52,610 bases of DNA from Verrucomicrobiota bacterium (GTDB taxonomy: Bacteria; Verrucomicrobiota; Verrucomicrobiia; Verrucomicrobiales; Akkermansiaceae): assembly GCA_018969605.1 (NCBI GenBank), contig JAGWXY010000006.1:1-52610 (forward strand). The letters are read 5' to 3'. Below the pieces are notes generated by a model that searched no databases, was not told the origin of the DNA, and was given only the letters and a program-made list of their open reading frames with translations. The position numbers and the translations under genes were made by a program. Position 1 is the stretch's first letter. Each line of letters opens with the position of its first letter. Of the stretch, positions 30,414 to 37,064 are shown in pieces.

Positions 30414-31334
30414 ATGAGGTTGGTTTTCATCGCCACAGGAGACATCGCGCTGCCAGCCTTTCGTCACCTTCTCGATGCCGGACCAAAACCGCTCGCCCTC
30501 GTAACCCAGCCTGACAAGCCGGTGGGCAGGCATCAGCAAATGCAGCCGCCCGCGATCAAGACCGCCGCCATCGAGGCAGGCATACCCGTGCTTCAGCCGC
30601 AAAAAATTGGCGATTCCGCCGCCGAGATCGCCGCAATGAATCCCGACATCCTTGTCGTGATGGCATACGGCCAAATCCTCAAAAACGACATTCTTTCACT
30701 GCCGAAACTGGCAATCATCAACCTCCACGCATCGCTCCTGCCAAAGTACCGCGGCGCGGCGTGCATTCAGGCCGCCATCGATGCCGGCGACGCCGAAACC
30801 GGCATCACATCGATGCATGTCGTGCGCGAACTCGATGCCGGCGACATGATCGTGGCAAAATCGATTGCGATCGGGCCCGATGAAACCGGCGGCAGTCTGC
30901 ACGACCAACTCGCGCAACTTGCCATACCGGTGCTTGATGAAACACTCGCGAAGTTGACCGATGGCACCGCCACGCGCATCCCGCAAAACCCGGAGCAAGT
31001 CAGCCATGTGCCAAAACTCGAACGCGATGACGGCAGGCTCGATTGGTCGATGTCCGCTACCCACCTTGAGCGCCGCATCCGCGCCTACGACCCGTGGCCG
31101 GGCACTTACACAACGGTTGCCGAAAACGGATCCACCAAGCGCCTAAAAATTTTTCCACCCACCCGTATTGCACACACTTCACTCAAACCTGCGGAAGTTT
31201 CATGCGACGAAGGCAAACTCATCGTCGGCTGCGGCGATGGCTCGCTCGAACTGACCACAGTGCAACTCGAAGGCGGCAAACGAATGTCCGCCACCGACTA
31301 CCTGCGAGGCAAAAACCCCCACCATTTTGCCTGA
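30414..31334 (+). CDS. fmt: Methionyl-tRNA formyltransferase
   Basis: 306 residues, standard length. The N-terminal formyl-transfer domain shows MRLVFIATGDIALPAFRHLL, NLHASLLPKYRGAACIQ (the catalytic Asn-His part), and ETGITSMHVVRELDAGDMI (catalytic Asp). The C-terminal OB-like domain begins near GRLDWS and includes RRIRAYDPWPGTY. It formylates the methionine on initiator tRNA using 10-formyl-tetrahydrofolate. Its usual partner def is not adjacent. Confidence 0.96.
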   Translation: MRLVFIATGDIALPAFRHLLDAGPKPLALVTQPDKPVGRHQQMQPPAIKTAAIEAGIPVLQPQKIGDSAAEIAAMNPDILVVMAYGQILKNDILSLPKLAIINLHASLLPKYRGAACIQAAIDAGDAETGITSMHVVRELDAGDMIVAKSIAIGPDETGGSLHDQLAQLAIPVLDETLAKLTDGTATRIPQNPEQVSHVPKLERDDGRLDWSMSATHLERRIRAYDPWPGTYTTVAENGSTKRLKIFPPTRIAHTSLKPAEVSCDEGKLIVGCGDGSLELTTVQLEGGKRMSATDYLRGKNPHHFA

Positions 31335-31380: not shown

Positions 31381-32361
31381 ATGATGATCCGCCGCCTCAC
31401 ACGCCTCATCCTCGCACAGGCCATTTGCCTGAATGCAACGATGGCGGATCGCGCGCCGATCAACGACAAGCCTGCGCCGGAAAACCGTGAAGATCTTCTC
31501 GCGATTCAAAACGCAGTCACCAGTGCCCTGCCAAACGCCAGTGCCGCCACCGTCGCCATTGAAATCACTGATGGCTCAGGCACCGGAGTGATCGTCTCAC
31601 CCGATGGCCTCATCCTCACCGCCGCCCATGTCAGCGGTGCCCCCGGAAAAAAAGTCGAGGTTATCATGCAAGACGGCAAACGCGTGAACGCCATCACGCT
31701 CGGACTCGATTCGGAATCCGACGCAGCGATGGTCCGCATCACCGAACCCGGCACATGGCCATTTGTCGAAATCGACAAATCGGAATCATACAAACTCGGC
31801 GACTGGGTCTTTGCACTGGGTCACTCAGGCGGCTTTGATAAGGAACGCGGACTCGTCCTGCGCCCGGGCCGCATCGTGCGCATCGCCGATCAATCCCTCC
31901 AATCCGATTGCATCCTGATCGGTGGCGACTCAGGCGGTCCCCTCTTCGATCTGGCCGGACGCCTCATCGCCATTCACTCACGCGTTGGCCCGCAACTCGT
32001 GGTCAACATGCATGTCGGCATCGGAGTCTTTCAGGAAAAATGGGACGCCCTTTTGAATTCCGAATTTCTCGGCGATGGCCCCTTTGCGAAGAAACCCGTG
32101 AAAGGCAACGGATACCTTGGCATTGCCACGGAGCCCACTAAAGACGGACTCAAAGTCACCAAAGTCGGCGATCAAAGCCCCGCCCAAAAAGTCGGCATCC
32201 GCAGCGGAGACCTGCTCATAAAACTCAACGACACCGCCTTGCAATCGCGCGAGGACCTTCAAGCCATCCTCAAGGAACTAAGCGCCGGCGATGAAGTCCG
32301 CATCGAAATCCGCCGCGACACGGAAACCAAAACCCTCACGATGAAACTCGATGAACGCTGA
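31381..32361 (+). CDS. HtrA-like S1C serine protease with one PDZ domain
   Basis: 326 residues with a secretion-type N-terminus (RRLTRLILAQAICLNATMA). The trypsin fold carries the complete triad: H83 in LTAAHVSG, D114 in ESDAAMVRI and S184 in GGDSGGPLF. A PDZ domain follows at about 235-325 (GIRSGDLLIKLND). It should degrade or refold damaged proteins in the periplasm. Compared with DegP it is shorter, has one PDZ domain and lacks the long LA loop. The next gene overlaps it by 11 bp and encodes a degenerate relative, so the two products are made together and may form mixed assemblies. Confidence 0.9.
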   Translation: MMIRRLTRLILAQAICLNATMADRAPINDKPAPENREDLLAIQNAVTSALPNASAATVAIEITDGSGTGVIVSPDGLILTAAHVSGAPGKKVEVIMQDGKRVNAITLGLDSESDAAMVRITEPGTWPFVEIDKSESYKLGDWVFALGHSGGFDKERGLVLRPGRIVRIADQSLQSDCILIGGDSGGPLFDLAGRLIAIHSRVGPQLVVNMHVGIGVFQEKWDALLNSEFLGDGPFAKKPVKGNGYLGIATEPTKDGLKVTKVGDQSPAQKVGIRSGDLLIKLNDTALQSREDLQAILKELSAGDEVRIEIRRDTETKTLTMKLDER

Positions 32362-33355
32362 CCGCATCACCATCATCCTCGGAGCGATTCTGCTGACGCC
32401 ACTCATCGCGCAGCAAAATCTCGAGACGGATTTCCGCATGACCGGAAGGACAACCCTCGCGGCATTCGAAGCACAACGCCAAGTGCTCCAGCAATCCAGC
32501 GCGGTGATCAGCATCGGCCAGGAGGAAATTGCTTATGGCGTGGTGGTTTCCGCAAATGGTCATGTGCTGACCAAAGCCAGCGAGCTTCGCGAAAAGGAAA
32601 AACTCACCATCACCATCGACCGTCAGCGTTTCGACAAAGTTGAAGTCATCAGCACCGACGATGAATGGGATGTCGCGCTGCTCAAGGTCGATGCCACCAA
32701 CCTTGTACCAGTCACCTACACCAGCGCCACCGAGATACCCCAAGGCACCTGGGTCGTGGTGAATGGTGCCACTTCACGAACCCAACGCCGCGCCAACATC
32801 GGCATGATCAGCGCCAAGCCCCGCGAAATCCAACCCAGTGGTGGACTCGCCCTCGGCATCGTGATCAAAAATTCATCCAAGCGCATCGAACTCGAAAAGG
32901 TCACTCCCGAGGGCGGAGCCCATGAGGCAGGGCTCAAGGCAGGCGATGTGATCGTCGCCATCGACGACAAGCCGCTGGCAAAAATCGAAGAGCTCTCCAA
33001 TGCGCTCGATCAATACAAGGCCGGCGACAAGGTCCGTATCACCTTCAAGCGCGACGGAAAAACATCCACCGTCGATGTTCGCCTCACCGCCAAAACCGAG
33101 CTCTTCGATATTTCAGCCAACCGCAACGACGAAATGAGCGGCGACTTCTCCAAACGCCGCAGTGGCTTCCCCCGCGTGATCCAACACTCGGTCATGGGCA
33201 ACAGCCAAACCATGGGCGGCCCCGTGATTGATCTCAACAGCCACTGCCTCGGCATGAACATCGCCCGCGCCAGCCGCGCGGAAACCTTTGCCATCCCAAG
33301 CGCAGAACTGAAACAACTCGCCGCACGCATGATTGACCACCAACCAAGCCGGTAG
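32351..33355 (+). CDS. Catalytically degenerate HtrA-like protein with PDZ placed before the Ser-motif region
   Basis: 334 residues with a signal peptide. The trypsin-like half keeps the Asp (WDVALLKV, D107), but the His site reads VLTKASEL (Ser77 where His is expected) and the nucleophile site reads SQTMGGPVID (Met288 in place of Ser), so no protease activity is expected. The PDZ domain (AGLKAGDVIVAIDDKPL, about 165-248) lies before the GGP segment (287-300), whereas in normal HtrA it follows it. It is co-translated with the active protease just upstream. Likely roles: regulatory subunit, substrate adaptor or chaperone. Confidence 0.8.
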   Translation: MNADRITIILGAILLTPLIAQQNLETDFRMTGRTTLAAFEAQRQVLQQSSAVISIGQEEIAYGVVVSANGHVLTKASELREKEKLTITIDRQRFDKVEVISTDDEWDVALLKVDATNLVPVTYTSATEIPQGTWVVVNGATSRTQRRANIGMISAKPREIQPSGGLALGIVIKNSSKRIELEKVTPEGGAHEAGLKAGDVIVAIDDKPLAKIEELSNALDQYKAGDKVRITFKRDGKTSTVDVRLTAKTELFDISANRNDEMSGDFSKRRSGFPRVIQHSVMGNSQTMGGPVIDLNSHCLGMNIARASRAETFAIPSAELKQLAARMIDHQPSR

Positions 33356-34070: not shown

Positions 34071-37064
34071 TCATTCGACGCGAAGTCGCGCAAAGATTCG
34101 CGTTTGGCCGACTATGTCTGGCAGGGTGACTTGAATTCGATCGGGGTCGGATCCGTTTTCCTCGATCTGAACTTCAGGGAGGTTGTTGCCGGTATCTATC
34201 GGTATGTCCGTCCAGTTCACCAAATCCTGAGACCACTGCACGGTGACAATGCGCACTCCGATGGAAGAATCGAGCCTGCGGAAAGTGAAGACCGATCCGC
34301 CTGCGGGATTGAATGAGATCGTCGGCCATTCCACACTCGATCCGGATGCGGGAAGCACCGCATCGAGAACATCCGCCACGCCGTTGGCATTCAAATCACC
34401 TCGTCTGATGCCTGAAGCTTCTGCTGTGAGGATGCCCGTCTGCCTGTCAAAGGTTGCAGGTCCGAACAAGGGATCGATTTGGACTACGACTGACGGGTCG
34501 ATGTTCAAGGATGCCGTTTCGAACAGGTCGACAGAAACTGCCGACCCGACGGCGAAGTCGACGGTAGATACGATTTTTATAGTGCCGCTGAGAATCGAAA
34601 TTTGATCCGCAACGATCCTATCCGCGCCTCCGGTATCGTTGCTTTCGATTTCCATGTCGAGCGTTCCGGATTCCATAAGAAAGTTGCCATCGACATCGAT
34701 TTGTCCCGGAGAGAAACCTGGTGAGATCACCCCACCGGCATTCACCAGATCATTACCGTCAGCTGCTGCGCCTGTGATGGTTCCGGTGCCGAGAAGATAG
34801 CCCTCAGGGCCGATTACGAGCGCACCGTTGCGGTAATCCAGCGCAGCCGCACTGCTCACATCGCCAACGAAGACGGCAGATGTTGCATCAAGGGTTACAT
34901 TGGAATCGTTGAGAACCGCTCTTGGAGGGTCGGAGAACTCCGATTGCTGCCAGCCTCCGAAAGCGTCAGTGTAGCAACCCACCGAGACCCTGCCACCTGA
35001 AGATACCGAGAGTTGGGCAGCGCCTCCAGTCGAAGTGTTGAAGCCACCGAAGACAATCCCGCTGATGCCCTGAAAGATGTTTGGGAATGCCGTGGCTCCG
35101 AGATTGAGTTTGTGGAGGCCGACATTGGTGCCGATTCCGGAAATCGAAACTGATGCCTGCCCCGCGCCCGTACTGGCGGCACTCAAGGATCCGGTCCAGA
35201 CCGTGCCGCCATCAACCGTAAGCGTACAAAGACCGAATGGTGGTGCCAGATCACCGTAAGACCCTTCCCCGATTGAGATGTCCAGTTCATGGACGGCGGC
35301 TCCCGCAGTCAGGTTGACTTGCGTGTTGCCGACCTGACCACCAGCGATCAGCGATTCGGGGTTAGTCATCGATGCCGCGTTCCCGGGTTGCCAGCTTCCG
35401 CCCGAAACCGTGAGATTAGAATCGGCGCCAATCGTGCAGGAGACATGCCGCACGGAAGAGTTGGTGAAATCCAGATCAACCTTGTCATCGAGGATGAGGT
35501 TCAAGTAGTCGGCGGTGCTGTTTGTGACGGCGAAGGTCGAAGGATTAGCATGATCCATGATGCGCAAGGTATGGCTTGCGGGATACGAGTAATCGCCGAA
35601 GGTCTGCAGCGAGCCTCCGCGCAAGGTCGCTCCGTTGGTCACGGAAATGTTGTAATGATCCCAAGCTGCCAACGGATCCGCAGTGTCCCAGCGATCGGCA
35701 TTGAAAGAAAACGGCATGGAGAGGATTGTGTCCGATTCTGAGGCGGTCAACGTCAGGGTCGCTCCCGTTTCCACACCCACATCGGGAAGCAGACGAATTT
35801 CCGAACCACCGGCAACCGTCACCGAATGGGCGCCGCCATCAAGACGGACTCGGGTGCTGTAGGAGTTGCCGCCAACGATCAAGGATCCGTCATCTGCAGA
35901 CCAGTCCAGTGAGATGCTTCCGTTCGTCGGAGATTGCGGTGTTCGGATGGAACTAAAAATAACCTCGCCGCCGCTTTCGGCCAACACGCGCAACGGGTTG
36001 CTTGGGTTCTCGAATTCAGTTAAGCCCGTATGAACAATCTGCCCGCTATTAGTTGCATGGGCGAAAGTGCCTGAAAGGTCGCTAAAACTGGACTCTCCCT
36101 GCGCTAGGATCGTGGGGGAGCTTGGTTCCGTCCCATCGCCCAGCGCACGGAAAAGCACCAGCGGGTCGGCGCCAACGAGTTTTCCTGTGCTGGTCAAAGG
36201 GCCTACGACAATCGAGCTCGGGCTGGTCGTGGAATCCGATTCGAAAACAACGCCGGTCGGATTGGTCAGTATGACCTCGGTGAAGTTCATCTGCCCGCCG
36301 GTTTCCGCGCGGAAGACGGTGACGTTGCCGGTGTTGGGTCCGCTTGGACACGGCGAAAAGGTATAATGGGTGGTGCCGCCAAGTATCGCTTGCGCGCCCT
36401 CACGCACCAGCAATGGAGAGACGGCTCCCGGACCTGTGCGTTGAAGGGTCGCCGTCCAACTGACGAGGTTGTATTGAGGTGTCACATTCCCCGTGACTTG
36501 TATGCCTGAAGGCTCGTATGTTGCGGAGCTGGTATCGGTGTCTTGAATCAGGATGCGTTGGGCATAAACCAGAGTGTGGTCGAAATCGATGGACGACGAC
36601 CGCAGTTCCATGGAAGCAAACGGCTCATCAATGGTCCCGTTGTTCATGGACAATTGCCCAAATGGATCGCCTGGAGTATCCGGTGTGCCGTCAAAATGCA
36701 GCAGGTTTCCATCGAAGTACATCAGGCTCAGGCCTGGCGATGAGTAGGGTTGTGCGAACCCGAGTGCCGTAGCGGTTTTGATCGTCATGTTTCGCGCCGG
36801 TGTATCGATTGGTGCACCGAGGTGACTTTTGCTGCGGAAATAAACCGAGTCGCCGATGTAAGGAGTGCTTGGCGGCTCCAGCGGTTCTGTCGCGTCGCGC
36901 CAAAAATTCGGATCCCAGAACGACCGCTCAGCTTCGGGACTGCCAAGACTGTCATGGGCTTGCTCGGCGATCAGTTCGTTTCCCAACGCAGCGGAAAAGC
37001 GAAGCTGCGGGCCTATCATGAAGGCAAGCCCAAGGCATGAAATGAAACGAATACGAAATTTCAT
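34071..37064 (-). CDS. Large secreted beta-helix protein with dockerin-like motif
   Basis: 997 residues with a signal peptide (FISCLGLAFMIGPQL). Most of the chain is Ser/Thr/Gly-rich with repeated short strands and Asn turns, as in autotransporter-type beta-helices; ISPGFSPGQIDVDGNF is the typical end-of-repeat segment. Near residue 890, GDLNANGVADVLDAVLP resembles one half of a dockerin calcium loop. The last ~80 residues (FTFRRLDSS, then VQWSQDLVNWTDIP) form the compact C-terminal domain common in secreted verrucomicrobial proteins. No PEP-CTERM tail or beta-barrel is present. Inferred role: extracellular or surface protein binding polysaccharide or other cells. It stands alone. Confidence 0.78.
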   Translation of the reverse strand: MKFRIRFISCLGLAFMIGPQLRFSAALGNELIAEQAHDSLGSPEAERSFWDPNFWRDATEPLEPPSTPYIGDSVYFRSKSHLGAPIDTPARNMTIKTATALGFAQPYSSPGLSLMYFDGNLLHFDGTPDTPGDPFGQLSMNNGTIDEPFASMELRSSSIDFDHTLVYAQRILIQDTDTSSATYEPSGIQVTGNVTPQYNLVSWTATLQRTGPGAVSPLLVREGAQAILGGTTHYTFSPCPSGPNTGNVTVFRAETGGQMNFTEVILTNPTGVVFESDSTTSPSSIVVGPLTSTGKLVGADPLVLFRALGDGTEPSSPTILAQGESSFSDLSGTFAHATNSGQIVHTGLTEFENPSNPLRVLAESGGEVIFSSIRTPQSPTNGSISLDWSADDGSLIVGGNSYSTRVRLDGGAHSVTVAGGSEIRLLPDVGVETGATLTLTASESDTILSMPFSFNADRWDTADPLAAWDHYNISVTNGATLRGGSLQTFGDYSYPASHTLRIMDHANPSTFAVTNSTADYLNLILDDKVDLDFTNSSVRHVSCTIGADSNLTVSGGSWQPGNAASMTNPESLIAGGQVGNTQVNLTAGAAVHELDISIGEGSYGDLAPPFGLCTLTVDGGTVWTGSLSAASTGAGQASVSISGIGTNVGLHKLNLGATAFPNIFQGISGIVFGGFNTSTGGAAQLSVSSGGRVSVGCYTDAFGGWQQSEFSDPPRAVLNDSNVTLDATSAVFVGDVSSAAALDYRNGALVIGPEGYLLGTGTITGAAADGNDLVNAGGVISPGFSPGQIDVDGNFLMESGTLDMEIESNDTGGADRIVADQISILSGTIKIVSTVDFAVGSAVSVDLFETASLNIDPSVVVQIDPLFGPATFDRQTGILTAEASGIRRGDLNANGVADVLDAVLPASGSSVEWPTISFNPAGGSVFTFRRLDSSIGVRIVTVQWSQDLVNWTDIPIDTGNNLPEVQIEENGSDPDRIQVTLPDIVGQTRIFARLRVE

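Follow-up and report, generated by a model that had tools for sequence, protein, structure and literature searches.

The window analysed here, a stretch of 52,610 nucleotides from a Verrucomicrobiota bacterium, carries on its forward strand two overlapping genes, designated U and Q below. U encodes an HtrA-type protease, recognised from its Trypsin_2 and PDZ_2 matches and its HtrA fold. Counted from its most likely start, the ATG at 31381, the protein is 326 amino acids long, the stop codon lying at 32361. Q, an ORF of 334 amino acids with an ATG start, has a signal-peptide-like N-terminus; sequence comparison and a structural model identify its product as a secreted HtrA-like pseudoprotease. 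Both ORFs are real, and with them the 11-bp overlap reported in the initial annotation. A frame error or a misassembly of the window can be excluded, since the identical architecture is found in many genomes.

31381..32361, + strand: U, HtrA-type protease with an intact triad (signal peptide, trypsin-like domain, C-terminal PDZ)
32351..32361, + strand: 11-bp overlap between the end of U and the start of Q, from the ORFs
32351..33355, + strand: Q, HtrA-like pseudoprotease with a PDZ inserted in loop L3

By eye, the gene at 30414-31334, which ends 47 bases before U, is fmt-like (methionyl-tRNA formyltransferase). A role deduced from this neighbour was rejected: of the loci compared, only the window and its two nearest relatives have fmt in front of the pair. 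On the minus strand, the 997-residue product of positions 34071-37064 is repetitive, looks secreted and, by eye, resembles an autotransporter or adhesin. Scanning for promoters and terminators gave no signal above shuffled sequences.

Homologues were collected from relatives, from 240 genomes of the order and from a phylum sample of 115 genomes, yielding 114 distinct Q loci. The initial annotation had described Q as having lost the His and Ser of the triad while keeping the Asp and the GGP turn. This is indeed what the sequence reads: in the window, the triad His is replaced by Ser77 (TKASE for TAAHV) and the Ser by Met288, within TMGGP, with Asp107 still present. A search for relatives with an intact triad returned none, His and Ser being each lost in 114/114. 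Position 77 is Ser in 111 homologues, Thr in two and Glu in one; the nucleophile position is occupied by M, V, C, A, I, T, E or Q, and by Ser in 0/114.

32570..32584, + strand: T74-K75-x-S77-E78 motif of Q, replacing TAAHV (His lost); K75 in 112/114, S77 in 111/114
32669..32671, + strand: Asp107 of Q, the retained triad Asp, kept in 112/114
33212-33214, + strand: Met288 of Q, dead nucleophile position (TMGGP), never Ser in 114 homologues

Arg158, Gln278 and Arg309 are each found in 114/114 distinct homologues, and Lys75 and Arg306 are also invariant or nearly so in this set. Near-invariant features across 114 loci exclude that Q is a decaying pseudogene. Salt bridges within the set formed by K75, S77, E78, D107, R306 and R309 probably occupy what was once the active site. 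Q is homologous to HtrA proteases without being one: Asp107 alone remains of the triad that characterises HtrA proteases (MEROPS S1C), and the score of Q against the NCBIfam model TIGR02037 (degP_htrA_DO), 109.1 bits, lies below the curated cut-off of 416.2 bits.

In Q, Pfam detects Trypsin_2 at residues 63-158, truncated to profile positions 3-108 of 144, and after it PDZ_2 at residues 167-245. Further downstream, residues 271-330 align to residues 170-234 of DegQ, the Ser-loop half of the second barrel. Since this DegQ segment lies upstream of the DegQ PDZ (267-336), the PDZ of Q sits inside the protease domain rather than C-terminal to it as in HtrA proteases. A consistent picture was obtained by aligning the Q-family profile with the best-scoring solved HtrA. 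Followed in chain order, the matching profile positions are 66-170, 281-337 and 170-277, and the break lies between GIVSAKGRSL and FIQTD; it is thus between these two strands, in L3, that the PDZ has its place. Thus, the order given in the initial annotation, with the PDZ before the Ser region, was correct, and its interpretation as a swapped domain order gives way to insertion into L3.

32498..32824, + strand: first barrel and start of the second barrel of Q, residues 50-158, ending at Arg158
32843..33091, + strand: inserted PDZ of Q, about residues 165-247 (PDZ_2, E 3.4e-16)
33092..33160, + strand: linker of Q returning to the barrel; MSGxxSxRR, the second part of it, is conserved above PDZ level
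33161..33340, + strand: strands completing the second barrel of Q, with Gln278, Met288, GGP and Arg306/Arg309

An AlphaFold2 model of Q, built from seven sequences (Q and six orthologues), had a mean pLDDT of 72 and a weak linker at residues 257-287. Compared with DegS deleted of its PDZ (VIA-align 2), residues 31-330 of the model matched 176 of 185 residues with an rmsd of 2.8 and a Z of 19.6. Q is thus predicted to fold as an HtrA-type trypsin-like double barrel, and its last residues, as the initial annotation had supposed, to complete the barrel. The PDZ is found in every Q (114/114) and has retained LG[VI], its carboxylate-binding loop. Between PDZ and barrel lies a segment (33092-33184, MSGxxSxRRSGFPRVxQHD) that is more conserved than the PDZ and poorly modelled; it is a candidate contact surface for U. 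A tree of PDZ domains, addressing the origin of the Q PDZ from that of U, did not resolve the branching order.

Q was detected in 173 of the 240 Verrucomicrobiales genomes, in 40 of 48 genera; outside the order, the phylum search found it in a single family (f36). Beyond Verrucomicrobiota, the homologue search returned no Q, its distant matches being ordinary HtrAs with the usual domain order where both parts were visible. U lies directly upstream on the same strand in 101 of the 114 Q loci and is fused to Q in 10, which makes 111/114 loci paired. U was not found in the remaining three, two of which (L099 and L115) lie at contig ends; the third (G056) is a real orphan, with no U-type protease within 13 kb of Q. 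The catalytic His, Asp and Ser are all kept in 111/111 U partners. The pairing of a live and a dead protein remarked upon in the window thus holds across genomes: the U-Q pair is old and nearly obligate. Fold and survey together support the reading of the initial annotation, in which Q would serve as a regulatory or substrate-capturing subunit. In the 115-genome phylum sample, U is matched strongly in 13 genomes and Q occurs in exactly these 13; four members of one genus (g18) lack both.

The window genome holds, besides the window pair, a paralogous pair on contig C47 (L002, 368-1351 and 1348-2562). This second pair is diverged: its Q' protein has 404 amino acids, a C-terminal extension and 28% identity to Q. 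The U tree divides into the same two kinds of pair, and most well-assembled genomes of the order have both kinds, or several. In genus g18, which is of the same family and probably corresponds to Akkermansia, species with genomes of about 2.7-3.5 Mb have both pairs and many of those with 2.0-2.6 Mb have no U and Q; in the small-genome species, it looks as if the two had been lost together. The window genome also has an ordinary HtrA (L210, contig C63), whose triad is intact and whose L3 has the sensor Arg; the U-Q pairs are thus an addition, not a replacement. In trees of the protease domain (quick trees with long branches), one branch contains all Q and another all U, apart from ordinary HtrAs. 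Distances between U proteins and between Q proteins correlate at 0.91, a value that any two co-inherited genes would give.

To explain the 10 loci in which U and Q form a single chain, no fewer than four changes are needed on the U tree. The order is reversed in one of them (L207, genome G477), where a 637-residue ORF contains the pseudoprotease half first, followed by the active half with its PDZ. Fusion in both orders is classic, if indirect, evidence of physical partnership.

The U protein of the window is modelled as an ordinary HtrA fold (pLDDT 75.5), with the triad intact and the PDZ after the protease domain. What it lacks of an HtrA is the L3 loop with its sensor Arg.

31627..31629, + strand: catalytic His of U, ORF residue 101, His in 111/111 U homologues
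31720..31722, + strand: catalytic Asp of U, ORF residue 132, Asp in 111/111
31867..31908, + strand: Gly181-Asp194 of U, spanning the shortened L3, sensor Arg absent (from span and Arg counts)
31930..31932, + strand: catalytic Ser of U, ORF residue 202, in GDSGGP, Ser in 111/111
32101..32358, + strand: C-terminal linker and PDZ of U, missing from U of the two nearest relatives

Every U has an L3 span of 12-14 residues; in ordinary HtrAs the span is 21-37 residues, and in Q it is 121-149. The sensor Arg is present in 0/111 U; among 61 ordinary HtrAs from other bacteria, the L3 Arg is found in 59 and the Gln in all 61. U has moreover lost its own PDZ in 19/111 loci, through at least six changes on the tree. 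These include the two nearest relatives of the window (L007 1368-1404 and L012 3965-4001, Q 80-81% identical), in which U stops directly after the protease domain and Q follows at once; the window U retains its PDZ. A frameshift was excluded as the cause of PDZ loss in these two relatives, as there is no PDZ-sized room between U and Q. Judged from the sequences, the active partner sheds the sensing parts and the dead partner keeps them. The architecture of the pair suggests that cutting and sensing are split between two subunits.

Two of the residues kept by Q correspond to residues involved in the activation of DegS. In register with DegS, for which we take the residue numbers to be Arg178 and Gln191, GMISAKPR158 of Q faces GIISATGR178, and VIQ278HS faces FLQ191TD. 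Both equivalents, Arg158 and Gln278, are found in 114/114 Q. L3, which hosts the PDZ in Q, is the loop that relays the PDZ signal in DegS and DegP. Binding of a ligand to the DegS PDZ moves L3, whose Arg178 then bonds the LD loop of the neighbouring subunit; the activation cluster also involves Gln191, and activation occurs in trans (PMC11642142).

We propose, with a probability of about one half, that U and Q together make up a periplasmic HtrA, as two subunits that divide catalysis and sensing between them, Q switching U on in trans. U and Q would co-assemble into a mixed HtrA-like oligomer, probably in a 1:1 ratio as the fusions imply. The PDZ of Q would bind C-terminal peptides of misfolded or outer-membrane clients, and binding would bring L3 and Arg158 of Q up against the LD loop of an adjacent U, switching the latter on. 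Q might also hand the client to U. The sign of the regulation, activation or inhibition, is the weakest step of this mechanism; activation is favoured, since in DegS and DegP it is the active form that is stabilised by the residues Q has retained.

The two-subunit reading agrees with the pairing (111/114), the fusions in both orders, the co-presence of the genes, the intact triad of U (111/111) and the dead site of Q (114/114). It also agrees with the retention by Q of Arg158, Gln278 and a PDZ, opposite a U that has no sensor Arg, a short L3 and, in 19 loci, no PDZ. A precedent is MamO, a dead HtrA that activates the live MamE (PMC4794232). Against this reading, most U retain their own PDZ and may thus sense by themselves, and the Q of G056 is an orphan, no U-type protease lying within 13 kb of it. 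The narrower description as a split-allostery HtrA, in which a dead subunit with a PDZ in its sensor loop acts in trans as the switch of a catalytic subunit without that loop, is quite possible and offered tentatively.

Conserved pairing and fusions would equally be expected if Q were an inhibitory or purely structural subunit, its dead domain building or holding the oligomer and perhaps keeping U off until needed; the inactive domain of plant Deg7 offers a precedent (PMC3473262). This we regard as unlikely, for it leaves unexplained both the invariance of Arg158 and Gln278 and the fact that L3 and the PDZ were lost from U and not from Q. A role of Q as a substrate-capturing adaptor only, its PDZ tethering clients to U without allosteric control, fits the canonical carboxylate-binding loop and the constant presence of Q beside the PDZ-less U of several lineages, but the location of the PDZ within L3 and the retained sensor Arg suggest more than a tether and make the proposal distinctly improbable. 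Dead HtrAs can turn into scaffolds, as exemplified by PflC (PMC12222027), and U and Q could be merely co-expressed, Q acting on its own as a scaffold or chaperone in the periplasm. This is very improbable, given the strict co-presence of the genes and the ten fusions, which occur in both orders. That Q has enzymatic activity at a new active site built from K75, S77, E78, D107, R306 and R309, as the near-invariance of these former-cleft residues might suggest, is the least credible view, since the nucleophile position varies freely, the residues could equally be a salt-bridge network filling the cleft, and, to our knowledge, no enzyme of the trypsin fold uses a dyad of this kind.

An HtrA working with a pseudoprotease partner is a known theme; we found no description of the U-Q family or of its architecture in the open-access literature. 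Verrucomicrobiales, Akkermansia probably among them, seem to have in this pair a core protease system of the periplasm. Its nearest precedents are MamE/MamO of magnetotactic bacteria and plant Deg7. In MamE/MamO, an active HtrA and a catalytically dead relative act together, MamO being required for proteolysis by MamE (PMC4794232). Unlike Q, MamO has a TauE-like transporter domain and binds metal; the portion of the account available speaks neither of a PDZ within the protease domain nor of a MamE that has lost L3, and reports that physical interaction was not detected, whereas U and Q show fusions and a PDZ in L3 (PMC4794232). Q has no TauE domain in Pfam and scores 28.1 bits against the NCBIfam MamO model (NF040961), whose cut-off is 800 bits. 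At most, Q works like MamO, without being a member of the MamO family.

In plants, Deg5 and Deg8 work together, one without and one with a PDZ; unlike Q, both keep the triad, and the PDZ is at the C-terminus. Plant Deg7 combines an active and an inactive HtrA domain in one chain. The natural U-Q fusions of 10 loci are comparable but have a different arrangement of PDZs, and in the window U and Q are separate genes. The Deg7 order is PD-PDZ-PDZ-PDia-PDZ-PDZ, the PDZs following the protease domains, and trimerisation has been attributed to the inactive domain of AtDeg7 (PMC3473262). PflC of Campylobacter is, like Q, a catalytically dead periplasmic HtrA relative, but is a flagellar motor scaffold of protease-PDZ-PDZ order, with no active partner gene reported (PMC12222027). 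The parts of the MamO, Deg7 and PflC descriptions at hand contain neither a PDZ placed within L3 nor an active partner that lacks this loop. DegS, DegP and DegQ share with the U-Q pair the fold, the L3 Arg and the Gln, the PDZ family and the periplasmic location; they differ in sensing and cutting within one chain, in having the PDZ after the protease domain and in their intact triad. Because each subunit of DegS and DegP both senses and cuts, loop action in cis is hard to separate from action in trans. If our reading of U and Q is true, their natural division of the two tasks between two genes would make trans activation of HtrA directly testable.
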